Source: a virus. Taken from it: a stretch of DNA of 52,439 nucleotides. Where the stretch lies: positions 1-52,439 of IMG/VR virus record IMGVR_UViG_3300042691_025813; one strand, 5' to 3'. The translations under genes were made by a program, and so were the position numbers. The notes beneath the pieces are model-generated. The model had not been told where the DNA came from and did not search any database. It saw only the letters and a list, made by a program, of their open reading frames with translations. This document shows positions 2,810 through 45,648 of this stretch, one piece after another (the first letter of the stretch is position 1; each line of letters opens with the position of its first letter).

Positions 2810-5800
2810 TCAAAGATTCGACCTCACATTGAAAGTAACGACGATGTACAACAAGGGGAAGACGGGCTGATAGTAAGCCTCGACCTCGGCCACGGTCGGA
2901 TCATCGTCCGAGACTTTCGCGGAAACTCCGGTGAAGCCAGCGATAATCTGGCCCGCTTGGAGCTTCTGAAGAACGCCCGAGAGAGTATTCTCGATTTGGC
3001 CCGTGATGCCCGGAAGGAACTTCGTCCCGATAAACTTGTCCAGGGCATTGCGGGCTTGCTTCTGAACCTCGTCGGCGATTTGGGTGACCGTCGGAAGCTT
3101 CGTGAGGATATTCGTCATATCCGTCGTGAGCCCTTGACGTACCCGAATCTGGTTCTGCTGTTGGAACAGGACCGTCACGCCGCGAGTAGCAACTTGATTC
3201 TGTTCCACGGGGTCCAGAACCCGAGCAATCCCGTCAAACCCAAATACCTGAGCATTAGTCCAAGGAGTCGCTACATCGATGCTCGGAGAAGCGCGGGTTC
3301 CGGCGAAAGCCGCCGCCATGTAAGTGCCATCGACGAGATAAGACTCAATCGTTCCGACCGCGTTGGTAAGGCTTAGCGTGTAGATGTCGGGGTACAACAT
3401 CCGAAGACGGGTACGGCCGATTGCTTGGGCCTCGTTTCCAACGTCCCTCGGTTCAGTCCCCGCAGAAACTCCGACGATCCCCGTTCTTTCCGCACGGTAA
3501 CGGATTGAAGACTGGATATCGCAGTGTTTCGCAAGGTACTGGAACAGGGAGAGAGAATCACCCCTTAGAGGAATGATGTAATCCGGGAAAGCGCCTCCAG
3601 GAAGAGGACCCTCAATATCGTCGATCGCCGCTTCATAAGCAGGAACCGAAGCTTGATCGTCCACCCCGTCCCCGTTGACATCAGTGTCTTTCGGGACCTG
3701 CTTGATCGCAACAAGGACGGCCCCGTTGATGATCGAGAGGTAAGAAGCCAGCGTTACCGGATTCTCAGGGGAGTTCGCCCCGTAGACGGCTTGGATCGTC
3801 GACATCTTTGTGTAAAGGGCGGGAGAGAAGTCTTGCTTCCGGTAGTCATAGGAGACGTAATACAAATCCCCTACGTTGGGTTCTGCTCCGGAGGGAGCGA
3901 AAGTAGAAACAATCGCGGTATCCCCGGTTGAAATCCCGAGAGTGTTGGAAACCAGAAGCTGAACACCCGGAAGAGTATTCACCGGAATGTTAGCATTCGT
4001 GGTTGCGTTCTTTCTCACTTTGAGAGTAAAGAACTGACCCGCCGGGTAAGAAGCCCCTCCAGTTCTGGGTAGAACCGTGAAAGTAAGTCCGGTCACCAAG
4101 TCACGGTAAGTCTGACCGACGTTTCCGTCTTGGCCGACCGCCGCGTTAAGAACGGACGTATTCGCGGTCCCGGAACCGTTGACCGGATCCGAAGAAGTCA
4201 CAAAGAAGCCTTCGATTGCATCTTCTCCGACTGCGCCGTCTCCGTCTTGAACTCCAAGTCCCCCGCCCGGAAGAAGCGCATTGTCAGAAGCCGCATCTTC
4301 GAAAGCGATCGAAGAAAGGGTTCCAGCACCCGCATTACCAAGGCTTTGAACAAAGAGGTAATCGGCCCCCGCAGAATCTTGGAGAGTCTTTGCGAGGGCG
4401 TCCAAAGAGAAGCTGGAATTGTTCATCAAGCCGGAAACAAGAACTTCCGGTTGAAGCAGAGTACGGAAAGCCGTTGATCCTTCTGAGAAGCCGAGAGGCC
4501 CGTTCGCGGATCCGTTTCCGATAACGATGCTGGAAGAAACTTCTACCGAAGATCCACGGAAACGGATTCCGGCTCCTTCTTGCAAGAGCAATCTTGCAGA
4601 AAGAACCGCCGCCGCCGAAGCCCCAAGACCCGCAGAAGCCATCGCTGCTGCGATTTGGTTCAGGATGGTATTTGCAGTTCCCGCCGGACCGAGAGGTACG
4701 TCCGCAGAACCCGCTGAAGGAATCACGGCCCCGGAAGAGTCTCTAAACTCAACCGTGACGGGAACCCCCTCAAAGGTAAACTTGAAGACGTTGTTCTGAG
4801 CAGTTGTTCCGCCCGCCGCAAAGAAAGTCACAATCGGTTGGCCTAAACCAGACTGGCCCCCAGAAAGACCGACTTCGCCGAAGAGAGTCGGCTCCATCAT
4901 AGTGGCGCGGATACCGGCCAAGCCTTCTGCATTCGGGGTGAGGCCGGAAAGGGAAGCCCCAGTTCCACCAAGAATCCTTAGCTGGCATTGGTCCAGGGTG
5001 CTTTGACCGTCCAGAGAACCCCCTTGACCCGGAAGGATCCGGTTTCTGAGGATCAAACGGTCATAAGCATGAACCCCGGTAGTCGGCCCGGTGAAAGTAA
5101 AGACCGAAGCGATCTTGTGGTTTACAATCTTGACTTGGCTTCCAAGGGCAGAACCTAAGTCAAGTCCGGCGAGGATCGCGAAGTTGTTTGCCGGAAGAAC
5201 GCCAGTGCTTACAAACTCAAGTACCGCTTCCTGATCGTCTTGGGGGTGACCCGCAAGCAAGAATACCAAACGACCCGAAGAATCCGCTTCTACGAAGATT
5301 TCAACTTCATCGTTTGTTCCAAACGCCGCAAGTACCGCAGTGTCAACAGCAGTCTGAACTGCCGCTGCCAAAGCGGAAACCGAAGTGTAGTTGGAAGCCG
5401 CGATAGAAGCGGTGATGGTCGTCGGGGCGGTGGAGTTACCCGAATAAACCATTCTCAGAGTTGCAAACCCTGATGAAAGATCGGTCGGGGCCAAGAACCG
5501 AGTCTTGGTCTTGATGTAAGGAAGGGCGTCCGGGTTGTAGGCGACGTAAGAATCTCCGATCGCAGGAACCCCGGAGAAGTTAGAATCCACCGTCGCGGTT
5601 CGGGTAGAACCCACGTAGCCGGAGATCACTCTCTTGTCACCTGCGGCTGCGCCGGAGATCACTTTGACGATCCAATTCTCGTAGTGACCCGAATTCTCGG
5701 AAGCCGTGATCGGGAACACGATCGTTGAGAGCGTTCCGAAAGTCGCGTCCGCGAACTCTCCGAAAGAAGCCCGATTGATTGCGTCCGCGAAATCTTGGAC

Positions 5801-8248
5801 GGTCTTACCGGAACCCGTGTTCAAGGAAGCTTGAACGAGAACCCCGTCAACTTGAAGATCAACCCCGTTATTCGCAGAAGTGATTTCAAAGCCGGTCCCG
5901 TAAACCGAGCCTCCGGTCAGAGTAGCACCAGAAACTACAATGTTCAAGTCACCCGAAACCAAGGTGATCGAGTTGCCAGCAGTTCCGGCGTCGGTCGCAG
6001 TGACGTAAACCTTTGCACCGATTGCTTGGGCGCTTACCCCGGAAACCGAAGAAACCGCCGAAGCCAAAGAAGAAGCCGTGGCCGCATCGTTTACGCCGAT
6101 GTTCCAATCCACGCCTTCTGTAAGAACGGAACCATCTACGGTAACCGTAGATCCACCTGCGGGAGCACCTTGGACTTCAAAGAACCCCGAAGCAGCAACC
6201 GCTTGATCATACGTGATTTCTTCGCCCGTCCAGTAAGCAAAGAAGCCCGTTCCATTCCCGGTTGGGTCTGAAAGATCAAACGTAGAAGCTCCAGCGTTAT
6301 CGATATTCAGAGCGAGGTTATCGCTCGCCCCGCTTACCAAGTAGTAGGGGCCTGAACCCGTGACTGCAAACTTGGCAAGAGTCGCATCCTGGGATGCGAA
6401 AGTTACCGTGACGTCTTCTTCCACCGCTCCGGAGAACTCCGAAGTATCAAAGGGGCTCTCAAAGCGAGAGTCCGGAGCTTTCTCAGAACCTGATGGGAAG
6501 TTTACGGTGACCGTCGACAATCCCGCGGACTTGGTACCCCAAGTCGGGGTGAGCAAGAAAGAACCCTGAGAATCTTGGATCGTGTAAGTTCCAACTCCGC
6601 TTGGACCCGGAGCCACAACGGTCAGGGTGTATTCTTGATCTTGGATCGTGTTATAGTAGAAAGTCGCCCAAACCTTGGCTCCGGTCGGAACCGGCGAAGC
6701 AAGGGTGATCGTGTTGGTATCCGACTCTACTTTGGTGACTTTCACCCGACCCCGGTCAAGGGCGTCCGAGATTGAATAGCCCCAGTAAGCAAAGATCAAA
6801 TCCGGGCGGTTTGTCGGAAGGTCCTGCCGACCATTTGCAACTTTGTTGAAAGTCTCAGTTCCGCCGGTGATCGGAGTGTTGCGACCATTTCCGGTAGTCG
6901 GCTGAAGGGGCAGAACAAACTGCTTGCGGCCTTCTACGGGAGGGTTGACCGAAGTGTCAACCACCGGCTCGCACAGAGCAAGGTATTGACGAACGTCTAC
7001 CAGAGTGTCTGAAACTTGGCTCTCTCCAAAGAAAGTTGCCCCGGAAGTGTGAACCCCGGATTCTACGAGAGAAGCCGTCCCCCAAAGGATATGATCATCC
7101 TTTAGAACGAAGTCCACCCCTTCGATGTAATCCGAACGGTCTGGGGTAATTCCGCAGAGGAAGATGTCCGTGATTCCACGGTGTTGCAGGTAATCAAAAG
7201 TGTTCTGCCAGGAGTTGAAATAATACTGGCAAGTAACCGAGGCTCCAACTTCCGGCGCAAAGGGAAGAGTAACGGCTCCGGTCTGCCCGTCCAAAGCTGT
7301 CGGGACCACTTGAACCCCGTTGACTTTGACCGTAACGTCCGCCGGATCCGTGGTCGTCAAACCTCCGTTAGACCCATCCACGATGGGCCTTTGGAAAGTA
7401 TAGAACACATTATTGCGGATTGTCTGAACCCCCTCTGTAAGTCCCAGAGTGGGATTCGCGGTGCCCGCAAGAATCTTGATGTTACGGTCCGAAGCAAGCT
7501 TCAAGACCGTCTGACCAAAGTTGTTTACAGCAGAAGAAGCAACAAGGGAAGTCCCTGTCGCCGCAGCGTTGATAAAAGCAGCGACTTGCGCCGCAGTCCA
7601 ACCCGCGAGAGGGGAAGAAGAGATCGTTACCGAAACGGTAGTCGCGTCATCTACGAGGAAAGAGAGTGAGTCGTTCTCCCCGGAGATAACCTCAAAGTTC
7701 TGCCCGACTGCCCCGTAAAGGACCGGAGCATCCGAACTGACTTGATCCGAAAGGTTGTCCGTGATAAGGGTATCGGTACGATTGAAGAAATAAGTGACCC
7801 GAACAACGTCGGTCGCAAGAGGCTTGGTAGAGAGCTGAAGGATTCCCTTTGTTCCATCAACCGTGAGAACGACGATCGGGCGACCGTTTACCGTCACATT
7901 GATAGAAGAAGCGTTTGTCGCAACGGTTCCAGTCCCATCTCCCGTAACAATCGGGAAGTTGCGAACTTGAAGCCGGTCGCGGGTTCCGTCAAAGTCCCCG
8001 AGCGTTACCGCACCTGACGCAGAAATCGAAACAACTGCGCGCCCGGATTCGTCTTCTTGGACGATTCTTTGGTCCACAGAAGTAGAAGAACCCCGGACCA
8101 CTTCCAAAGAATTCTGGCGCAGGATCTCAGAACCAACCCCAAGAAGAAGGGGGATTCTGACGTTAGACGCAACGCCTTGGACGGGATCCTCAAAGAGGGT
8201 TCTCGTGTAAACGCCGGGAGGAGCGTAGACGGAGCCTGGAAAAGCCAT
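2810..8248 (-). CDS. Contractile tail sheath protein, extra-long
   Basis: A 1812-aa protein. The N-terminus (MAFPGSVYAPPGVYTR, then IPLLLGVG) and last ~350 residues are classic sheath: SLSLFQYLAKHCD, RTRLRMLYPD, GVTVLFQQQNQIRVRQGLTT, ADEVQKQARNALDKFIGTKF, GITGQIENTLSGVLQKL and YYQPVFPLLYIVVTF. These C-terminal elements form the conserved core that polymerises around the tail tube and contracts on infection. Sheaths are usually about 350-700 aa. Here roughly 1000 extra residues between the two ends are Gly/Ser/Thr/Ala-rich, beta-type sequence with Ig- or fibre-like repeats, probably extra domains decorating the tail surface. It is the largest gene in the window and is preceded by a leader with alternative hairpins. 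No frameshift or internal stop is seen. Confidence 0.92.
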   Translation of the reverse strand: MAFPGSVYAPPGVYTRTLFEDPVQGVASNVRIPLLLGVGSEILRQNSLEVVRGSSTSVDQRIVQEDESGRAVVSISASGAVTLGDFDGTRDRLQVRNFPIVTGDGTGTVATNASSINVTVNGRPIVVLTVDGTKGILQLSTKPLATDVVRVTYFFNRTDTLITDNLSDQVSSDAPVLYGAVGQNFEVISGENDSLSFLVDDATTVSVTISSSPLAGWTAAQVAAFINAAATGTSLVASSAVNNFGQTVLKLASDRNIKILAGTANPTLGLTEGVQTIRNNVFYTFQRPIVDGSNGGLTTTDPADVTVKVNGVQVVPTALDGQTGAVTLPFAPEVGASVTCQYYFNSWQNTFDYLQHRGITDIFLCGITPDRSDYIEGVDFVLKDDHILWGTASLVESGVHTSGATFFGESQVSDTLVDVRQYLALCEPVVDTSVNPPVEGRKQFVLPLQPTTGNGRNTPITGGTETFNKVANGRQDLPTNRPDLIFAYWGYSISDALDRGRVKVTKVESDTNTITLASPVPTGAKVWATFYYNTIQDQEYTLTVVAPGPSGVGTYTIQDSQGSFLLTPTWGTKSAGLSTVTVNFPSGSEKAPDSRFESPFDTSEFSGAVEEDVTVTFASQDATLAKFAVTGSGPYYLVSGASDNLALNIDNAGASTFDLSDPTGNGTGFFAYWTGEEITYDQAVAASGFFEVQGAPAGGSTVTVDGSVLTEGVDWNIGVNDAATASSLASAVSSVSGVSAQAIGAKVYVTATDAGTAGNSITLVSGDLNIVVSGATLTGGSVYGTGFEITSANNGVDLQVDGVLVQASLNTGSGKTVQDFADAINRASFGEFADATFGTLSTIVFPITASENSGHYENWIVKVISGAAAGDKRVISGYVGSTRTATVDSNFSGVPAIGDSYVAYNPDALPYIKTKTRFLAPTDLSSGFATLRMVYSGNSTAPTTITASIAASNYTSVSALAAAVQTAVDTAVLAAFGTNDEVEIFVEADSSGRLVFLLAGHPQDDQEAVLEFVSTGVLPANNFAILAGLDLGSALGSQVKIVNHKIASVFTFTGPTTGVHAYDRLILRNRILPGQGGSLDGQSTLDQCQLRILGGTGASLSGLTPNAEGLAGIRATMMEPTLFGEVGLSGGQSGLGQPIVTFFAAGGTTAQNNVFKFTFEGVPVTVEFRDSSGAVIPSAGSADVPLGPAGTANTILNQIAAAMASAGLGASAAAVLSARLLLQEGAGIRFRGSSVEVSSSIVIGNGSANGPLGFSEGSTAFRTLLQPEVLVSGLMNNSSFSLDALAKTLQDSAGADYLFVQSLGNAGAGTLSSIAFEDAASDNALLPGGGLGVQDGDGAVGEDAIEGFFVTSSDPVNGSGTANTSVLNAAVGQDGNVGQTYRDLVTGLTFTVLPRTGGASYPAGQFFTLKVRKNATTNANIPVNTLPGVQLLVSNTLGISTGDTAIVSTFAPSGAEPNVGDLYYVSYDYRKQDFSPALYTKMSTIQAVYGANSPENPVTLASYLSIINGAVLVAIKQVPKDTDVNGDGVDDQASVPAYEAAIDDIEGPLPGGAFPDYIIPLRGDSLSLFQYLAKHCDIQSSIRYRAERTGIVGVSAGTEPRDVGNEAQAIGRTRLRMLYPDIYTLSLTNAVGTIESYLVDGTYMAAAFAGTRASPSIDVATPWTNAQVFGFDGIARVLDPVEQNQVATRGVTVLFQQQNQIRVRQGLTTDMTNILTKLPTVTQIADEVQKQARNALDKFIGTKFLPGITGQIENTLSGVLQKLQAGQIIAGFTGVSAKVSDDDPTVAEVEAYYQPVFPLLYIVVTFNVRSNL

Positions 8249-22158: not shown

Positions 22159-22815
22159 CTAAGCACCCACGCGGATCTTCTTGAAGGTTGCGGCTCCGTC
22201 TTTCTTCTGGATCCGGTAAGCGTGCTTCGCCGCTTCTACGAGAACTGGGTTATGGCTAACAACAAGGATATCCACACCCAAACGGTCTGAAAGAAGAGCG
22301 AGAAATCTCCCAACCCGAGGAACGTACCTTTCGGCTACCGCACCAAGACTTTCGTCCATGAGCAGAAGAGGGCGGAGGCCCCTACGGGTAAGAACCACAA
22401 GTCTTAGGAGAACCGACTCCACGGTTGCAACGGAACCCCCGTAAGCGTCCGTTGCAAGACCTTCGGTTGTGGTTCCGTCGTCATCCCTTTGCACTGTGAT
22501 CAAGTCTACGGAGACTTTCCCTCTTTCCACGCTCACGTCTGAACGTACCGAAAGGTTCAAGTCGTCGAATACGGCTTGAAGCCCTTCGGTCAGAAGTTCT
22601 TGTGCGGTCTTTGCGTTATCGATGACTTCTTGGTCGATGAGGAGGCGAAAAAGATCCGCCACCTTTTCCAAGACAGAAATCTCACCCTCAAGATAAAGAA
22701 CGCGCTCCTCGCCTTCTTTCAATCTTTGTTGGGCAGAATCCCGGAGAGCCTCCGCCCGAGAAAGATCCGAGCGAAGGCTTTCCAAGTCATCGAGCAGGCT
22801 ATTCAGGTCCGCCAC
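22159..22815 (-). CDS. Rad50/SbcC-like ATPase, C-terminal half encoded separately
   Basis: A 218-aa protein. Residues 1-75 are coiled coil (SRAEALRDSAQQRLKEGEER). The remainder is the C-terminal lobe of an SMC/Rad50 ATPase: a signature-like ATDAYGGSVATVESVLLRLV (123-140), Walker B with D-loop LRPLLLMDESLGAVAE (147-162), and the His-switch ILVVSHNPVLVE (183-194). There is no Walker A, so it cannot be an ABC ATPase alone. The matching N-terminal half, with Walker A and zinc hook, is at 26221-27444. Between them lie the clamp, a small coiled-coil protein, an Fe-S nuclease and Mre11. The two halves probably assemble into one head. It overlaps the clamp gene by 13 nt. Confidence 0.83.
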   Translation of the reverse strand: MADLNSLLDDLESLRSDLSRAEALRDSAQQRLKEGEERVLYLEGEISVLEKVADLFRLLIDQEVIDNAKTAQELLTEGLQAVFDDLNLSVRSDVSVERGKVSVDLITVQRDDDGTTTEGLATDAYGGSVATVESVLLRLVVLTRRGLRPLLLMDESLGAVAERYVPRVGRFLALLSDRLGVDILVVSHNPVLVEAAKHAYRIQKKDGAATFKKIRVGA

Positions 22816-23963
22816 ACGAGCACCGAAGTGTACTTGTTGGGGGAAGCCCCGTCGTCCTCATGGCGGAAAGCGATGTAGCCCCCACGCCCATGCCGCTTGA
22901 TCGTGAAACTGAGTTGATCAAGACCAAACACCGTAGAAATCCCCTTGATGTAAGGGTAGTCCACAGTGAAAGCCGTGTCGAACTTCCCATTCTTATCAGT
23001 TACCTTTGCAAGAGTCAGGGGATAGATATCCGTCCCCCCCGCTTCACAAGGCATCGAGATAGAAACAGTCGAAGTCTTCTCGTCATAAGAGAAAGTGATT
23101 GACTCGTGGCCCTTCGGGGCGCCAGCAAGAAGAACCGAAACGGCTGACTCAAACTCTGCCCGGTCCAAATCCAACTGGGCGTCCCCAACAGCATCCTTGT
23201 CTACATTCAGAGTCGGGAACTTAGAGGTCGGACGGTTTACGCCGACATAAGACCCGTCCGCCCGCTCAAACAGAGCGAAAGCACCCCCGCCGTCTTCAAA
23301 GGCTCTCTCGGCCTCTTTGATCGTGACGTCGTTCTCTTGGGTATGCTTGTCGTTCAAGAAACGAACAACTGCCGGGACTTCCTTGCCCGGAATACGGATG
23401 CTCAGCTCAGGGAGAGCCGTGACCTCTACCGCCGAAAGGGCGCGGCGGTCCGTCGCCCAGAGAACGCCTTTGATAGCCTCAACCTGGCAGAGCTCAGGCT
23501 TCGCGGTGTCTTCGGCCGAGACAAACCCCTTGGAGAGACCAAGAGCATGTGCGAGGCTCTTAGGGGAGATCGATCCGACGTTCTTTGCGAGCTTGAGGAT
23601 ATTGTCCCAGAAAGGGAACTTGCTCGGATCGAGGGACCGAAGACGGGTCTTGCTCCTACCGGCTTGGGCGTGAACATCCCCGGAAGCGTCCGAAGAAAGA
23701 GAAACCACGCCATCAGGAACGGCGGCGACCCACTTGTCCATACGCCAGGCTTCTACCGTGAAAGCCTGGCCGTCTTCTCCGTCGACCGTAGCGACAAGAG
23801 GCGAACGCGCGAAAATACGCCCGTCGCAAGAGAGGACCTCTGCCTTGCCCTCTTGGATACGGAAGAGGTAATGCGAGGTGAGATCAGTTCCACCTGCCGC
23901 AGCAGCGATAGAAGCGACAGAGAGAGCAACTTCCAAATCCGACTTGGCGACTTCGATCTTCAT
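22803..23963 (-). CDS. dnaN: DNA polymerase III beta-like sliding clamp
   Basis: A 386-aa protein, close to the ~370 aa of bacterial DnaN, with three-domain clamp features: MKIEVAKSDLEVALSVA, ALGLSKGFVSAEDTAKPELC, VLWATDRRALSAVEVTAL, RPTSKFPTLNVDKDAVG, FTVDYPYIKGISTVFG and a C-terminal LSFTIKRHGRGGYIAFRHED. It encircles DNA and tethers the polymerase. The start overlaps the preceding coiled-coil gene as ATGA. With DnaX, delta and delta-prime in the same window, the phage encodes a bacterial-style clamp/clamp-loader set instead of the T4-like gp45/44/62. Confidence 0.88.
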   Translation of the reverse strand: MKIEVAKSDLEVALSVASIAAAAGGTDLTSHYLFRIQEGKAEVLSCDGRIFARSPLVATVDGEDGQAFTVEAWRMDKWVAAVPDGVVSLSSDASGDVHAQAGRSKTRLRSLDPSKFPFWDNILKLAKNVGSISPKSLAHALGLSKGFVSAEDTAKPELCQVEAIKGVLWATDRRALSAVEVTALPELSIRIPGKEVPAVVRFLNDKHTQENDVTIKEAERAFEDGGGAFALFERADGSYVGVNRPTSKFPTLNVDKDAVGDAQLDLDRAEFESAVSVLLAGAPKGHESITFSYDEKTSTVSISMPCEAGGTDIYPLTLAKVTDKNGKFDTAFTVDYPYIKGISTVFGLDQLSFTIKRHGRGGYIAFRHEDDGASPNKYTSVLVWRT

Positions 23964-24235
23964 CTGGTTTTCTCCAGGTAAGGGGCGATGGCTTCTTGAG
24001 CAGCTTTCACTTCCTGCTCGAGTTTCTCAACCGAAGATTGATAAGCACTCTCGAGCTTCTCAATCGTCTCTTCGAGGGAATCCGGGTCAAGATTCTTAGA
24101 TAGAATCTCTGCCCGAAGATCTTCCAGGGCTTTGGCGGCGGCTTCTTTCCGACCTTGAATTTTCTGAGCCTGGGAAGAGAGCCGGTCTCTTTCGGCAAGG
24201 GCTTGGTTTAGCCTCTCATCTAAGTCTTGTGCCAT
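23960..24235 (-). CDS. Small coiled-coil protein
   Basis: A 91-aa protein, nearly all coiled coil (LNQALAERDRLSSQAQKIQG, ETIEKLESAYQSSVEKLEQ) with one break around NLDPDS. It lies between the two halves of the Rad50-like ATPase and is coupled to the clamp gene by ATGA. The N-half carries a long coil and hook while the C-half has only a short coil, so this protein could supply part of the returning coil. That is inference; coiled-coil sequence alone does not assign function. Confidence 0.75.
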   Translation of the reverse strand: MAQDLDERLNQALAERDRLSSQAQKIQGRKEAAAKALEDLRAEILSKNLDPDSLEETIEKLESAYQSSVEKLEQEVKAAQEAIAPYLEKTR

Positions 24236-24276
24236 AGAAGATCCTTTTCAGAGGTTTACCGCTTTTCGATTCGGCG

Positions 24277-25239
24277 TTATTCGCCGACGCCCATATCTAC
24301 AAACCCGCCGGTTCTTGGAACTTCTGCGAAGTCTTCCGGCTTGGGCTTAGGTCCTCTTGGGCCCCTGGAGTTTGCTTCTCTTTGGGCTTGACGAGCTTCG
24401 CAAACGGAAAGGAAATCACAATACTCGCAAGTCTTAGGTGATGGCGTTGGGGCAAACTTCTTTTTCCGCATACCGTCGCGGGCTTCTTCGGCTCTTCGGG
24501 CAACTCCCCGAAGATCCTCATCCGTAAAAGGGATCCAATCAACTCCTTGTTCGATCTCAATAGAGTCTGACTCAGAATTGAGTTTCTCCATCCCGTAAGG
24601 AAACCTGTACCATACAAACCCAAGGCGATCCGGGGATTGGCGGTAAGCAAGTTTGAAGACCATCGCATACCAACGCAACTGGTCGGGGTCTACGCCCCCC
24701 ATCTTATGCTTGGAGTTTTTACCATCCAAAATGGTAATCCCTGTATCTTCTCTTCGGATAATGAAATCTGCAATTCCCCCAACGGAGAGCCACTTATTGA
24801 TCCACCCGATAAGACGAACTTCGGACTTCGCGTAAGTCCCAAGAAGCTTGTGGGCTTTCATGGTCTTTAGGTAACCGTGAACCCCGTCCCGGCACACTTG
24901 TACCATTTCTTCTTCAGACATCCCCGCTTCCCTGAAATCAATCCAGTTGCGAGGTTTCTGGGAATGAAGGATCCATTGTTTCTCTACTTCTTGTTGTAGT
25001 GTTTGGGGTAGATTCTTTGGATCCCGATAAAGCTCTTCGTTGTACATTTTCTCAAGAGTGGCTTGGATCACGGTCCCCATAAGTGCGTGATGTGCGGATT
25101 TCTTTACAGGAACAGTCTTTGATTTCCCTGGTCCGTTACCGAGGTCAATATCCCCCCAGCCGTAAGACCAAAGAAACTTCTGAGGGCAATCCTCATAGGT
25201 TGAAAGGGCTGACCAGTACAGGGTGCTGTTTTCGTTCAT
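24277..25239 (-). CDS. Fe-S cluster PD-(D/E)XK nuclease, RecB/Cas4-like
   Basis: A 320-aa protein. The N-terminal YWSALSTYEDCPQKFLWSY carries C18; GTVIQATLEKMY holds the core helix. The nuclease motif is GGIADFIIRRE (D158) followed by ITILDGKNSKHK (D172-x-K174), then DQLRWYAMVFKLAY. The C-terminal C271, C274 and C280 (TCEYCDFLSVCEAR) together with C18 form the typical 4Fe-4S staple of Cas4, AddB and PDDEXK_1 nucleases. These act as DNA end-processing exonucleases. The C-terminal 35 residues are Pro-rich. The gene precedes Mre11 and the clamp in a recombination cluster; there is no CRISPR array, so a recombination or end-resection role fits better than adaptation. Confidence 0.87.
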   Translation of the reverse strand: MNENSTLYWSALSTYEDCPQKFLWSYGWGDIDLGNGPGKSKTVPVKKSAHHALMGTVIQATLEKMYNEELYRDPKNLPQTLQQEVEKQWILHSQKPRNWIDFREAGMSEEEMVQVCRDGVHGYLKTMKAHKLLGTYAKSEVRLIGWINKWLSVGGIADFIIRREDTGITILDGKNSKHKMGGVDPDQLRWYAMVFKLAYRQSPDRLGFVWYRFPYGMEKLNSESDSIEIEQGVDWIPFTDEDLRGVARRAEEARDGMRKKKFAPTPSPKTCEYCDFLSVCEARQAQREANSRGPRGPKPKPEDFAEVPRTGGFVDMGVGE

Positions 25240-25261
25240 GCATGAGAATACCCGCCCTCAA

Positions 25262-26224
25262 CTAAACTTGCTCCAAGTAAGCGAGTGCTCTCTCCCGAAC
25301 ATCATCCGGAACTCCGGAAACCGAACCCAGGGCGTCTTGTAAAGTCACCCCTTCTGCTTTTGGTTGCAACCCCTCACGGATTTTGTTTACAAAGGCATCC
25401 ATCTCTACTTGTCTGCGAACTTGCCGGTTTCGGGCGTCTACGTCAAAGGCTTCTTCCGGGGGCTTGACCCGAAGCCTTCGTACATCTACGGAGACTCCTG
25501 ATTTGGTGCATTCCAAAACGGCGCAAGCGGGTCTTCTTTGAACTTCATCCTGAGAAAGGGACCCGCGGGTCAAAGCTCCGATGTTGATGAAAGTCTTTCC
25601 CCCAAGGATCTCAACCCCTTGGTCCATATGCCAGTGCCCAAAGCAGAACACGTCGGGGGCGGTTTCCAGAAGATCCCCGTAACGGAAGATATCTTCGCCC
25701 TCAAACATGCTCCCGCCTCCAAGGGAAGCCAGGACATGGGCGACACAGATCAGGACGTCTTCGTCCCCGCGCTTGATGCTCCGGAACTTATCCGGGTCAT
25801 ATTTGTTCCCGGGATAAGGAACCCCTACAACTCGAACCCGCACCCCATTTTCTTCAAAGAGGGCTTCATGCTCGTTGTAAAGCCTCTTGAACACCCCTGC
25901 GGCGTAAAGAACACCAAGAGGTTGCTGGGGCAAGAAAGCATAATCCCCATAAACGCAATCGTGGTTTCCAGGGGTGCAGTAAACCGGGCAAGGATAATCC
26001 GAATGGTGCTCGGCGGTTCTACGGACAATCTCGTGGGAGTTTCTTCCCGGTGCTTTGATATGGAAGAAATCACCTCCGTCCAAGATCGCGGCGGCTTTTA
26101 CTTCTCTGGCGATTTCCCGGACTTGGGAAAGTTTATCGAAAACAGTCTCAGCCCAGTCATCTTTCCTGGAACTCGGCCCTTTATCCGCCATATGTACGTC
26201 GGTTCGCCATACAAGCCGAATCAT
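25262..26224 (-). CDS. Mre11/SbcD-like nuclease (gp47-like)
   Basis: A protein of about 320 aa, starting at the ATG at 26224 that overlaps the stop of the Rad50 N-half (ATGA); an upstream start would overlap more deeply. It has calcineurin-like phosphoesterase motifs in order: LVWRTDVHMAD (motif I, Asp-x-His), AILDGGDFFH (II), VYCTPGNHDCVYGD (III, GNHD), ICVAHVLAS (IV) and CFGHWHMDQG (V). This is the nuclease partner of Rad50/SbcC (T4 gp47 with gp46), acting in end resection and recombination-dependent replication. Direct coupling to the Walker A half of Rad50 supports complex formation. Confidence 0.92.
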   Translation of the reverse strand: MIRLVWRTDVHMADKGPSSRKDDWAETVFDKLSQVREIAREVKAAAILDGGDFFHIKAPGRNSHEIVRRTAEHHSDYPCPVYCTPGNHDCVYGDYAFLPQQPLGVLYAAGVFKRLYNEHEALFEENGVRVRVVGVPYPGNKYDPDKFRSIKRGDEDVLICVAHVLASLGGGSMFEGEDIFRYGDLLETAPDVFCFGHWHMDQGVEILGGKTFINIGALTRGSLSQDEVQRRPACAVLECTKSGVSVDVRRLRVKPPEEAFDVDARNRQVRRQVEMDAFVNKIREGLQPKAEGVTLQDALGSVSGVPDDVRERALAYLEQV

Positions 26225-27444
26225 GAATGTCCCCCCGCACCATTCTGGTGTACGGTCTTGCAAGTCGGACAATAACCCCTCTCTCCGAGAAGAGATTGAA
26301 TCAGTATTTCGTTACGCTTATACCTTTGGGTTACGTTTTCTTCTTCCTCGTTGAGATCAACGATATTCTTCTCTAAGAGGTCTTTCCTTGACTTGAAGCT
26401 TCTAACAACGGTGAGGACCTTTGGGATCTTCTCGGCTTTGGCCGAGTCCGAGAACTGAGACTCTTGAAAATCTCCCAACCCGGATAAGTCCCCCTGGAGC
26501 TTCTTCATCTTCTGAAGTAGGTTTCGGGCTTCCAAGAGTTGGGATCTTAGAGAAGAGGCTTCGGAAGACCCCCACCGAGGAGGACTAAACCCCTCAAACC
26601 CGGCGCAAGAATCTTGCAAGTTTCTCATTCTCTCATGAAGAGATCTCAAACTTGAGATGTCCGCGCTGAACTTTCTGATGCCGGGGCTTTCTGGGGGAAT
26701 CTCTAAGGAGAAATCTTTAACCCCGCCCCAAATCTCCTTGCAAGAGGAGAGCCTGGTTTGCAGTATCTTTGCTTCTTGGAGGGAGTCTCGGGCTTTGAGA
26801 ACTTCCGACTTCTGGGAAGAAGCCTTTTCGACGAGAGACTTAGACCTATCCAAGCCTTTGAATCTTGCGACTTGATCCTGAAAGGATTTCAGGTCTTCCC
26901 GGCGGACCTTGAGTTCAGACGTAGAAGACCTCTTGTCTTTTTCAGATAAGCGAAGAGCGTCTGTTAAACGGCCAACCCTCTCTACGTCAGAAAGGGCTTC
27001 CGCTACAACGGCTCCAGTCTTGTTTACGAGAAATAGGGTTCCGTCAAACTGGTCCGCCACTTGGGGCCATACCGGAGTGTTTCCCGCAAGAATGCTCTTG
27101 ACTCCAAGTGCCTCAACTTCGGGGGGGACCCCCCTACCTACGCTTGAGATCTGATAACCATTGATGGTATACCGATTGATAGCGGCACCCTTCTTGTCAG
27201 GCTTCTCCCAACCCTTTTCCCAAAGTACGGTTGTGCCGTCATCGAATTCTAACTCTACGGATAAGTAGTTGGCCCCTTGACGCAAGTAAGATCCGGGGGC
27301 TGCGTTGGTAAACAACCCCCGGATCGCCCGCATGAGGGCCGTCTTGCCCGAATTGTTTGGACCACAGATCACAACAAAGCCGTCGATAATGATTTCGGCG
27401 TCTTCGATAGACTGAAAGTTCTTTACCCGAACTCGGACAGGCAC
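26221..27444 (-). CDS. Rad50/SbcC-like ATPase, N-terminal half with zinc hook
   Basis: A 407-aa protein starting at a GTG at 27444, with AAGGGGAG upstream. The N-lobe has VRVKNFQSIEDAEIIIDGF, Walker A GPNNSGKT (28-35), and a Q-loop-region strand (FDGTLFLVNKTGAVVAEAL). Residues ~165-385 form a long coiled coil (SSTSELKVRREDLKSFQDQV). The C-terminus carries a CxxC zinc-hook-like motif (GERGYCPTCKTVH), after which the protein ends without a return coil, signature or Walker B. Those appear in the separate gene at 22159-22815. In Rad50 the hook lies mid-protein, so this is a gene fission near the hook. Confidence 0.87.
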   Translation of the reverse strand: MPVRVRVKNFQSIEDAEIIIDGFVVICGPNNSGKTALMRAIRGLFTNAAPGSYLRQGANYLSVELEFDDGTTVLWEKGWEKPDKKGAAINRYTINGYQISSVGRGVPPEVEALGVKSILAGNTPVWPQVADQFDGTLFLVNKTGAVVAEALSDVERVGRLTDALRLSEKDKRSSTSELKVRREDLKSFQDQVARFKGLDRSKSLVEKASSQKSEVLKARDSLQEAKILQTRLSSCKEIWGGVKDFSLEIPPESPGIRKFSADISSLRSLHERMRNLQDSCAGFEGFSPPRWGSSEASSLRSQLLEARNLLQKMKKLQGDLSGLGDFQESQFSDSAKAEKIPKVLTVVRSFKSRKDLLEKNIVDLNEEEENVTQRYKRNEILIQSLLGERGYCPTCKTVHQNGAGGHS

Positions 27445-27480: not shown

Positions 27481-28749
27481 TCAATCCACTTCTTCGGAGA
27501 GATCCTTATCCTCTTCTTCTTCCTCCCCCATGGAAACGCCAGCGGCCTTCATCTTGGCCTCGAAGGGATCCACGACCCCCTCTTCATCGGTTTCGTCTAC
27601 AAACTTCGCCGCCGCGCCTTGTCCGAGAAGCGGCTTCACGCGAGAACGTAGAGCCTCATAAGCGTCGGGGTTTGAGAGGAGATAATCTCGAAGTTTCCCC
27701 GAGCCTTGCAACTTGAGAGGACCCTTCGGAGCATCATTCCAAGTGATCCAACCTGCCCCAGCTTTCTTGATAAGTCCGTGGGCGATCGCGATCTCCATCA
27801 TGGAACGGACGTTGTCAATCCCCTCACCCCAACGGATATAGAAGATTTCCTCATGCCCTTGAGAACGAGACATCTTGCACTTGATCGCGGTCACTTTGAT
27901 GATGCCGCCGATCACGCGCTCTTCCACTTTGTGGGTCAAATCGTTGAGCTCGTTCTGCTTCTCGTTCTGAACTCGGCGAAGCTCCAAGCGAACAGAAGAA
28001 TAGAACTTCCAAGCGTTGCCGCCTTGGGGCTGCGTCGTAGGTCCGTTGCCCATACCCCCGATCTTTGCCCGGATCTGAGAAATACCGATAACGGCGGTCC
28101 CAGTGCGAGCGATAACACGCTTCAAGTTTGGAAGTTCTTGCGACCAAACCGACTGAAGTTCTCCGATCTTTCCTTGTTCCGCAACGTCAAGGGCGTCCCT
28201 CTCCGCGAGACGGCGGGGGATCGCGGCACCAACCGAGTCGAACACGATGAGATCTACTCCAGCAGCGGCGTAAGTAGCCGCATACTTGATCCCGTCTTCC
28301 AGGGTTTCCGGCTGAAGAAGCTCAAACTTGTTGGGGTCCGTAATAGGGACCCCAAGAGCAGCCGCGTAGTCCGGAACGATATCGTTTTCCCAGTCTACAT
28401 AAAGGCAAGTTCCGCCGGCAGCGATGACCGAAGCGCAAGCCTGAAGAGCCAGAGTTGTTTTGCCGGCAGACTCATGGCCCCAAATCTGGGAAACACGACC
28501 GCGAGGAAATCCAGGGCAAGGGGGAACACCAAACTTATTCGGGGACCCTCCAATGAGGTAATCCACCACGTCACAACCCGAAGAAATATGCGGCAGGCTT
28601 TCTGCCAAAGAGTCTGCATCCAAAGAAACTCGGATATCGGTGAACTCCTTACCCTGCTTCTTGATAAGGTATTCCCGGGCTTGTGCGAGAGGGCTCAGCC
28701 CTCCCCCAAGGGCGGCAGAACCCGATTTGGTTTTTGCGGCAGGGGGCAT
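27481..28749 (-). CDS. recA: RecA/UvsX-type recombinase
   Basis: A 422-aa protein. The ATG at 28749 is preferred with AGGAG 5 nt upstream and overlaps the RuvC-like stop as TGATG. RecA core: GCDVVDYLIGG, Walker A WGHESAGKTTLALQA (around 92-99), LYVDWENDIVPDYAAALG, Walker B DLIVFDSVGAAIP, loop segments ALDVAEQGKIGELQS and ISQIRAKIGG, with GGNAWKFYSSVRLELRR. The C-terminus is strongly acidic (SMGEEEEEDKDLSEEVD), as in bacterial RecA where it tempers DNA binding. It catalyses strand exchange. The gene neighbourhood (RuvC, SSB-like, UvsY-like, Mre11/Rad50) defines a phage recombination-replication module. Confidence 0.94.
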   Translation of the reverse strand: MPPAAKTKSGSAALGGGLSPLAQAREYLIKKQGKEFTDIRVSLDADSLAESLPHISSGCDVVDYLIGGSPNKFGVPPCPGFPRGRVSQIWGHESAGKTTLALQACASVIAAGGTCLYVDWENDIVPDYAAALGVPITDPNKFELLQPETLEDGIKYAATYAAAGVDLIVFDSVGAAIPRRLAERDALDVAEQGKIGELQSVWSQELPNLKRVIARTGTAVIGISQIRAKIGGMGNGPTTQPQGGNAWKFYSSVRLELRRVQNEKQNELNDLTHKVEERVIGGIIKVTAIKCKMSRSQGHEEIFYIRWGEGIDNVRSMMEIAIAHGLIKKAGAGWITWNDAPKGPLKLQGSGKLRDYLLSNPDAYEALRSRVKPLLGQGAAAKFVDETDEEGVVDPFEAKMKAAGVSMGEEEEEDKDLSEEVD

Positions 28750-29399
28750 CACTTCTCCTTGTTAGACCAAAGAAAGAACCTGTCTTCTTCGCGGAAGACC
28801 ATGCCGGTCTTTACGGTTTTCCCGGCTTTCGCGCCTTTCGTGAAAGTGTGGACCTTCGCGAAATAATTCTTCTCAACGGGCGATAAGCCCGCTTCTAATA
28901 TCTCCCCCGAATAGAACCCCCAGAACCGGGAGGAAAGAACCCCTACAAGGTAAGCATCCGCCTCGTTGTGGTTCCATTTTGAAATCCCTGTGTCGGTTTT
29001 AGCGGCTTCTACCATGTCGGGCTTGTCCATCTTCCACCCTTTCGGGCGTGGGATCGTTTCTCTTGCCCGAGCTTTCACTTGTAGGGGGGTCCAGAAAACG
29101 GCATCCATCCCTTCAAGTTTCAAAGCCTCACAGGAATAGAGGAAAAGACCGTACATACCCTCCGAAAACAAATCATTGAAGATCGGGAACTCAATCCCGA
29201 CACGGTCAGGCTTCAATTTCTGAACGAGGCTTCTCAAACTTTCTCTTTGGGAGATATATCGGTCTACAAACTCCATGTCAGAAGGGGTAGAGAAGCGCCC
29301 CCGTGCGGGACACCTTGCGGGGTCTCCGACGGGGGCGCTTGTATCATGGAGTGCCCAACCAAAGTTTGTCAAGCTGGGGTCAAGTCCGAGCACTCTCAA
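28749..29399 (-). CDS. RuvC-like Holliday junction resolvase
   Basis: A 216-aa protein starting at a TTG at 29399 (GTG at 29393 possible). RNase H-fold motifs of RuvC are present: MRVLGLDPSLTNFGWA (D7), DRVGIEFPIFN (E70) and KWNHNEADAYLVG (D148 with preceding E/N). The middle LEGMDAVFWTPLQVKARARE matches the V-x-P-x-x-V-K strand/helix of RuvC. The last ~60 residues are an extra charged tail. It resolves Holliday or branched junctions, such as those in concatemers before packaging. It follows the SSB-like gene and is coupled to recA. Confidence 0.88.
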   Translation of the reverse strand: MRVLGLDPSLTNFGWALHDTSAPVGDPARCPARGRFSTPSDMEFVDRYISQRESLRSLVQKLKPDRVGIEFPIFNDLFSEGMYGLFLYSCEALKLEGMDAVFWTPLQVKARARETIPRPKGWKMDKPDMVEAAKTDTGISKWNHNEADAYLVGVLSSRFWGFYSGEILEAGLSPVEKNYFAKVHTFTKGAKAGKTVKTGMVFREEDRFFLWSNKEK

Positions 29400-43830: not shown

Positions 43831-45648
43831 TCAGAACGCGCCGCCGCCGAAGCTGGCCTGGATCGGCGAACGAACCGTCATGAAGCGGCTGGTGGTGAAG
43901 GTCTGCTTGACGGCGAGAGGATCGCTGTCAAAGCACATGAACTGCACCTCAACCGTGCGGTTGTAGTACGCGGTGATCTCGGCCCACGCCTCGAACTGGC
44001 CGGTGCCCGTGCGGGACATCTTCTTCCAGGAGGTGAGGCCGACGGCGTCGGTGTTTCCGAGGGCGGAACCTGCCGTGGGGGCATCGTACAGCGTGGGGCT
44101 GACGGCGCCAGCACCCATCGCCTGAACGATGATGAGCGCCTGACCCTCGGCTGCACCGTTGGTTCCGACCACGTCCGGGTCCTCGAGCGAACCGGTCTCG
44201 CCATCCTGGATGGTGAGGCCGAGCTTGAGGCGGAACGAGGAAGCCGCCGAGTAAACCTCGGAGGGAACCGACGGAACGAGACGGGCGTTGACCGACACCT
44301 GGAGGGTGTCGACAACGGCCTTGATCGCCGCGATGTCGGCCGAGAAAGTAGCACCAACCGGAGCGCCGAGCTTGGTCTGGATGTCCGTGGTGGCAGTCTC
44401 GATGTCGTTCGCCTTGGCTTTGATCGCCGCAAGACCCGTGGTCGCGTCGGTCAGCTCTTCGTGCGCCTCACGGAGCAGGTAGCCGGCCGTGCCAGCCGTG
44501 GTGTAGGTCGACAGGTTGTCGTCCCACACATCGGTGCCAGCCAGGTTGTCGTAGATCTTCTTCAGACCTTCGGCAACGCTGACGGGGGTGCCGGCGATGG
44601 CGCCACCCGCGAACACCGCGCTGACGTCGCCGATTTCGGTCGCGAGACCGTCCACGACGCCGTCAATGGTGTCCACCTTGGTTTCGATGCTGTCCACGAC
44701 GGTGTCGATCGTGTCCACCTTGGTTTCGATGCTGTCTACGACGCCGTCGATGGTGTCCAGCTTGGCTTCGTTCGCATCGATCTCGGCCTTCAGGGCCGCG
44801 AGGCCCGTGGTGCCGTCAGCAAGCGCGGAGGCGATGCCGTCGACTACGGTGTCAACCGTGTCAACCTTCGACTCGATGTTGCCGAGGTCGGTGTCAACGC
44901 TGTCGAGACGGGTCTCGAGCGCGGAGAGGCCGTAAGTCGCATCCTCGATAGCAGCCTTGATCGAGTCGACGTTGCCGTCAACGGTGGCGACATCGGCGCT
45001 CAGAGCGGCGATCTTGCCGAACACCGTGGCCGAAGCCGAAGTGTCAGCAGCCAGACCGATCAGGTCCTCAGCGGCCTCGGAGGCAGCCACGGTACGGTCG
45101 AGCAGCAGGTCAAGACGACCGCCGTTCGCCCAGTCACCCTGGAGCTCGTTGGTGTCGGCGAGGATCGCGGTCACGTCAGTCTGAAGCGCACCAACCTCGT
45201 TGTCGATGGTGGTGAGGGCGCTGTCGATCGCCGAAGTCTCGGTGTCGATCAGAGTCTTCAGAGCGGAAAGGCCGTAGGTGCCGTCGGCAAGCTCGGCAGC
45301 AATACCATCAACCACGGTGTCCACAGTCGCCACGTCCGAGAGGACCTGGGCGATGTGGTTGGCCGGAGCGTAAGCCCACATCGGGATACGGACCGACTCG
45401 TTGCCGGAAGTCACAACACCGTAGTACACGCGGTCAGCGGTCATGTTGGCCGAGAGGACCTTGAGGGCGTAAAGACCGCCACCCATGTCATCCACGGAAA
45501 CGCCAGCATTGAGGGCGGTGTCGGCGCCAGAGGCGTCGTTGGCCTCGTAGATGGTCGCGGTGGGGTTGAGCCCAGCTGCGCTCATCTGGAAGGGGAAGTA
45601 AGCGTTCTTCCCTGACGGGACGATACGCTCAAACGTCATGGTAGCCAT
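43831..45648 (-). CDS. GC-rich trimeric coiled-coil virion protein, fibre or whisker-like
   Basis: A 605-aa protein with GAGG 7 nt before its ATG. The N-terminal ~100 residues are an Ala/Gly-rich beta domain (GKNAYFPFQMSAAGLNPTAT). Residues ~100-440 hold heptad-type repeats built on VDTIDGVVDSIETK, VDTVVDGIASALADGTTGL and AALSADVATVDGNVDS, typical of a trimeric coiled-coil shaft. The C-terminal ~140 residues form a beta-rich tip (ASSFRLKLGLTIQDGETGSL, YYNRTVEVQFMCFDSDPLAV). Codon use is GC-rich, unlike neighbours, which may reflect high expression or transfer. It stands alone with its own terminator and structured leader. Likely a fibre, whisker or head-fibre protein. Confidence 0.75.
   Translation of the reverse strand: MATMTFERIVPSGKNAYFPFQMSAAGLNPTATIYEANDASGADTALNAGVSVDDMGGGLYALKVLSANMTADRVYYGVVTSGNESVRIPMWAYAPANHIAQVLSDVATVDTVVDGIAAELADGTYGLSALKTLIDTETSAIDSALTTIDNEVGALQTDVTAILADTNELQGDWANGGRLDLLLDRTVAASEAAEDLIGLAADTSASATVFGKIAALSADVATVDGNVDSIKAAIEDATYGLSALETRLDSVDTDLGNIESKVDTVDTVVDGIASALADGTTGLAALKAEIDANEAKLDTIDGVVDSIETKVDTIDTVVDSIETKVDTIDGVVDGLATEIGDVSAVFAGGAIAGTPVSVAEGLKKIYDNLAGTDVWDDNLSTYTTAGTAGYLLREAHEELTDATTGLAAIKAKANDIETATTDIQTKLGAPVGATFSADIAAIKAVVDTLQVSVNARLVPSVPSEVYSAASSFRLKLGLTIQDGETGSLEDPDVVGTNGAAEGQALIIVQAMGAGAVSPTLYDAPTAGSALGNTDAVGLTSWKKMSRTGTGQFEAWAEITAYYNRTVEVQFMCFDSDPLAVKQTFTTSRFMTVRSPIQASFGGGAF

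Follow-up and report, generated by a model that had tools for sequence, protein, structure and literature searches.

The window, by which we mean the whole stretch of DNA analysed, is an entire IMG/VR virus record of 52,439 bases and may itself be only part of a larger genome. Since the last 350 residues of a 1812-aa protein (2810-8248), the N-terminal part of which is unusually long, match tail sheath, the virus is taken to be a contractile-tailed phage. A 605-aa protein (43831-45648) resembles the SbcC-like family phrog_77 through its coil only. The genes of interest are on the minus strand, in the order RecD-like, RuvC-like, RecA, the N-terminal half of a putative Rad50 (N half), Mre11, a PD-(D/E)XK nuclease, a small coiled-coil protein (cc), a sliding clamp and the C-terminal half of the putative Rad50 (C half), after which come a coiled-coil protein, a primase-like gene and clamp-loader genes; some of these names were assigned by reading the sequence.

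Directly upstream of the N half (26221-27444, 407 aa; Pfam AAA_15, 8.7e-14) is a RecA/UvsX recombinase (27481-28752; Pfam RecA, 2.5e-42; phrog_97, 1.7e-48). The Mre11/SbcD nuclease (25262-26224) matches Metallophos (1.8e-12) and the NCBIfam models Mre11_Sulfo (9.3e-7) and SbcD (3.7e-6). Its longest open reading frame, 25262-26272, begins from a TTG at 26272; an ATG at 26224, which overlaps the stop codon of the N half as ATGA, is on sequence grounds more likely to be the start. The next gene encodes the PD-(D/E)XK nuclease (24277-25239; PDDEXK_1, 1.7e-20; PADLOC Cas4-like, 8.3e-9), with a CxxCxxxxxC near its C-terminus that would suit an Fe-S enzyme of the Cas4/AddB-like type. The gene for cc (23960-24235, 91 aa), a member of a conserved family, shares an ATGA overlap with that of the DNA polymerase sliding clamp (22803-23963; phrog_947, 3.4e-20), the end of which contains the start of the C half gene (22159-22815, 218 aa). 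The first-pass annotation had put Mre11, nuclease, coiled-coil and clamp genes between the two halves, and both halves and all four genes are present as it described, with the start of Mre11 corrected.

The two halves

The N half carries a Walker A motif (GPNNSGKT, residues 28-35), a Q-loop glutamine (Q132) and a CPTC (392-395). Its coil is made up of five helices, and the CPTC, which forms half of a zinc hook, is followed by 12 residues and the stop; reading of motifs along the 407 residues gave no Walker B. In profile searches of the PDB it matches 1f2t_A and 1ii8_A, and the hook structures 1l8d and 6zff only as far as the CxxC. The AlphaFold (AF2) model has a pLDDT of 82 and a low pTM of 0.39, and its fold matches Rad50 (1f2u_C) with a Z of 11.1 over 131 residues. 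This score is comparable to those of matches with other SMC, RecF and Rad50 heads, which is the normal level expected for an N lobe. Against the NCBIfam Rad50 models the N half of the window covers the start to approximately position 443, and the C pieces of its relatives match at approximately 664-894.

Residues G28, G33, K34 and Q132 are invariant in 41 aligned N pieces, all 41 of which also keep the hook cysteines. The CxxC lies 4-17 residues before the end of the chain in 49 of 50 distinct N pieces, the exception being that of Microbacterium phage Magritte. The motifs and their conservation in relatives thus bear out the initial description of this product as having a Walker A, a coil and a terminal CxxC with no Walker B. 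From head to hook the coil ranges from ~165 to ~280 residues among the loci, with most lengths falling into classes of ~165, 208 and 252 residues, in steps of ~43 (a few loci are mis-parsed). Two N genes (L063:2394-4640 and L081:1752-3782) have ~300 extra residues exactly within the Walker A, giving open reading frames of 676-748 aa; by eye these insertions look like inteins.

The C half has an 81-residue N-terminal helix followed by a signature-like AYGGS (GG at 126-127), a Walker B (LLLMDES, with D154 and E155) and an H-switch histidine (H188), and no Walker A was found on reading the motifs of its 218 residues. It matches the Rad50 C chains 3qkr_B, 1ii8_B and 1f2t_B in the PDB profile search, and phrog_15167 (ATPase) over nearly its full length (residues 1-210 against 1-207 of 211; 3.2e-19). 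The AF2 model is of high quality (pLDDT 94.8, pTM 0.79) and is matched best overall by Rad50, through the C-half chain of the Pyrococcus protein (1f2u_B, Z 14.0 over 144 residues). Complete C pieces are 206-233 aa long, typically about 210 aa, with an N-terminal helix of constant length. Amongst 47 of them D154 and E155 are present in all and H188 in 45.

The serine of the canonical LSGG signature is absent. With the register set by alignment to the LSGGQ of the PDB profile match, its position is occupied by phenylalanine in 27 of 47 C pieces, tyrosine in 14, cysteine and arginine in two each and asparagine and isoleucine in one each, the GG being kept; in the Bacilli-type loci it is arginine in 30 out of 30. 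At the position of the D-loop aspartate there is likewise variation (22 Asp, 12 Ala, 12 Ser, 1 Asn; n = 47). This product had been described at first as having a signature-like motif, a Walker B and D-loop and a His-switch without a Walker A. The Walker B, the H-switch, the GG and the missing Walker A all stand, but the signature-like motif is without its canonical serine, a point that is new here, and the D-loop aspartate is variable. In Pyrococcus Rad50 the mutation S793R makes the protein deficient in ATP binding and in ATP-dependent dimerisation (PMC7247530), and with the serine replaced the ATP sandwich must therefore differ or be weaker. The split head may engage ATP differently, and how a sandwich works without the serine becomes a question in itself.

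Recurrence in phages and Bacilli

The order RecA-N-Mre11-PDDEXK-cc-clamp-C is retained in ~50 IMG/VR contigs, and the split recurs in ~57 non-redundant loci, at identities down to 20-35%, with the position of the break, the length of the tail and the order of the genes in between unchanged. Mre11 is encoded close by in the window and in most loci. In every locus seen, N and C are separate. No full-length Rad50/SbcC came up when the window and 14 relatives, whose records may be fragments, were searched with the SbcC-like family phrog_77; a full-length Rad50 elsewhere in the genome had been named at the outset as the observation that would speak against a split protein, and a search for the same split in related phages, suggested at the same time, found it in related and distant ones alike.

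The more distant phages differ in how the genes are arranged. In Bacillus phage vB_BboS-125 the N half is gp32, which ends ICPLCEQTHKGGGC, a cc-like protein is gp34 and the C half is gp35; a Mre11-like gene of this phage (L026:9184-10164) is unannotated in its record. Microcystis phage Mvi-JY20 has overlapping genes in the order N-Mre11-cc-C, with cc directly before C and no clamp gene there. Acidobacteria phage Tunturi_5 has N directly followed by a 97-aa coiled coil, and C ~107 kb away. In Microbacterium phage Magritte (L023/L024) N is without the zinc hook and C is at the opposite end of the genome (gp2, 'exonuclease'). An alignment search with cc gave no match in Magritte, Tunturi_5 or Mvi-JY20, yet cc-like open reading frames were found by eye in the latter two. 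Viral structure models, when searched, likewise include phages that encode both a short N-like and a short C-like protein, among them Siphoviridae sp. ctYh54 (359 and 219 aa).

Two features of individual loci may be recorded here. Four relatives of the window (L007, L010, L011 and L016) have insertions of ~2-6 kb on one or the other side of Mre11, separating it from N or from the PD-(D/E)XK gene, and in L083 and L085 the Mre11 open reading frames are of 744 and 775 aa and may hold inteins.

The set is also found in bacteria, which the first-pass annotation did not foresee. The C piece (phrog_15167) occurs in 40 of 299 sampled Bacilli genomes, N is present in each of the 38 of these that were checked, and N, cc and C stand together in all 30 Bacilli loci shown, usually as overlapping genes. 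In these loci N-cc-C follows Mre11, and cc is directly before C with no clamp gene there. In two of them (L119 and L120, of genomes G159 and G309) the order is recA-recX-Mre11-N-cc-C-RNase Y-ymdB. These neighbours, with recA, recX and Mre11 preceding the split set and RNase Y following it, mark the site as chromosomal. This site between recA and rny was verified in two inspected loci; a third locus was elsewhere.

Canonical SbcC, the presence of which was judged with two different queries, is absent from 36 of 38 Bacilli with the trio (found in 2) as against 6 of 20 without it (found in 14), an anticorrelation with a Fisher p of 3.5e-7, though the genomes are not independent and the statistic ignores phylogeny. 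Four Bacilli genomes (Sutcliffiella, two Paenibacillus and Brevibacillus) have an arrangement like that of phage vB_BboS-125, and all four keep the canonical SbcC. Because the genomes are not independent, the anticorrelation supports a substitution of the split complex for SbcCD in these Bacilli but does not prove it.

A probable Rad50 built from separate polypeptides

The window very probably encodes a DNA-end-processing complex of the Mre11-Rad50 type in which the Rad50 is built from separate polypeptides. The folds, the PDB profiles and the conservation all agree with the original proposal that a homologue of Rad50/SbcC has been divided at its zinc hook, and the fold, conservation and genomic evidence together suggest that the two halves form one head. 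In the mechanism that we propose, the N half, with its Walker A/Q-loop lobe, and the C half would assemble non-covalently into one ABC ATPase head, and two such heads would dimerise around ATP. The tips of two N halves, each with a free C-terminal half of the hook, would jointly coordinate one zinc ion with their CxxC motifs. The neighbouring Mre11 would dock at the head and, by cutting or resecting, prepare DNA ends for the RecA encoded next to it, so that the complex would have both ATPase and nuclease activity, and cc would be bound along the coil as a third dedicated subunit. We strongly infer that the split complex works like Rad50. It is not a standard member of the family, being neither a single chain nor in possession of the signature serine.

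The place of cc can be considered from its distribution and its size. It accompanies N and C in nearly all loci, is 75-97 aa long (about 90) and, judging helices from the sequence, consists of two helices flanking a conserved (L)DPDxL loop; searches of the PDB and Pfam gave generic coil matches only. Its position varies with lineage, being near C in the window clade, beside N in Tunturi_5 and between N and C in Bacilli, and as it adjoins C, N or both, its constant partners are N and C. In no case was cc seen fused naturally to N or to C, the long C open reading frames being upstream choices of start.

It had been suggested that this 91-aa protein could be part of the return coil that the split leaves missing. 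The antiparallel coil of an ordinary Rad50 would then be restored by the three pieces, with cc leading from the hook to the C half. It is a coiled coil, its gene is never far from that of N or C and in Bacilli overlaps the two, and two units of ~43-45 aa within it would fit the ~43-aa steps of the N coil. However, cc and the C helix are constant in length while the N coil varies, with no correlation in length (Spearman 0.18, p 0.31), which disfavours a length-matched return strand; the whole coil is also beyond the pairing of one cc, so that several copies would be needed. That a small coiled-coil protein goes with the two halves is supported; the return coil as first put forward is not supported and is unlikely, a place for cc as part of the shaft, partial or in multiple copies, being possible. 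It is just as doubtful that cc is a regulator or adaptor outside the shaft, such as a connector between Rad50-Mre11 and either the clamp or RecA. Its gene does lie between the nuclease and clamp genes in the window clade, but in the Bacilli and Mvi-JY20 it is directly before C with no clamp gene and in Tunturi_5 directly after N. Most likely, cc is a third dedicated subunit bound along the coil.

The N half also matches OLD, GajA and AriA profiles, mostly through the P-loop, and with the degenerate signature of C this might indicate two separate ATPase-like proteins, an OLD/AriA-like N and a degenerate lobe C, with different jobs and never forming one head. This is very improbable, as each half by itself lacks part of the ATP site, the motifs are complementary and conserved, N and C occur together in 38 of 38 Bacilli genomes, and N carries the zinc hook of Rad50. 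In OLD, GajA and AriA a single chain contains the entire ATPase, joined in OLD and GajA by a TOPRIM nuclease, whereas N ends at its hook without a Walker B, and OLD-type proteins are not known to have a Rad50 zinc hook. PADLOC gave only P-loop and coil matches for the N half, so a role in defence is without support. That the split is an artefact or a recent breakage of one gene, as the extra genes between the halves might suggest, has next to no probability given the same break in ~57 non-redundant loci and contiguous N-cc-C genes elsewhere, and a frameshift or recent insertion as its cause is ruled out by conservation.

It seems rather more probable than otherwise that a natural three-subunit Rad50 (N, cc and C) with free C-terminal hooks and a serine-less signature constitutes a distinct and widespread branch of Mre11-Rad50, serving phages and, at the recA locus of a group of Bacilli, having taken the place of SbcCD in chromosomal end processing. 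In the usual view of Rad50, head, rod and hook are coupled by one uninterrupted coil, and a split Rad50 with an added third subunit would be an experiment of nature on whether the chain must run on covalently past the hook for signalling, tethering and control of the nuclease. The complex is also the likely end-processing enzyme of those Bacilli that seemingly have no SbcC.

Comparison with known systems

The literature searched, which covered few subscription papers, gave no description of a split Rad50/SbcC and no account of PHROG 16465, 18563 and 15167 as the pieces of one. A review of jumbo phages calls SbcC practically universal, and no mention of a split was found in it. These three PHROG families, annotated as exonuclease, unknown and ATPase, are N, cc and C in the lineage of the Bacillus phage and the Bacilli; the library keeps them as separate, unlinked families, and these orphan phage families can now be annotated together. 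An altered gene architecture for Mre11-Rad50 is also known from Mimivirus, where R555 is an Mre11/Rad50 fusion protein (PMC3175470), the opposite change to the split of Rad50 here.

Like Rad50/SbcC, the window-type system has an N lobe with Walker A and Q-loop, a C lobe with Walker B and H-switch, a coil with a CxxC hook and an Mre11/SbcD partner. Unlike Rad50/SbcC, it is made up of two or three polypeptides, its chain stops just past the hook with no covalent return coil, F, Y or R stands in place of the signature serine, and there is an additional coiled-coil subunit of 75-97 aa. A parallel for the proposed head comes from the Pyrococcus Rad50 structures (PDB 1f2t, 1f2u, 1ii8 and 3qkr), in which an N-half and a C-half chain, solved together, form the head. 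These two-chain proteins are laboratory constructs rather than natural genes, and they show that a head can be assembled from halves that are not parts of one chain.
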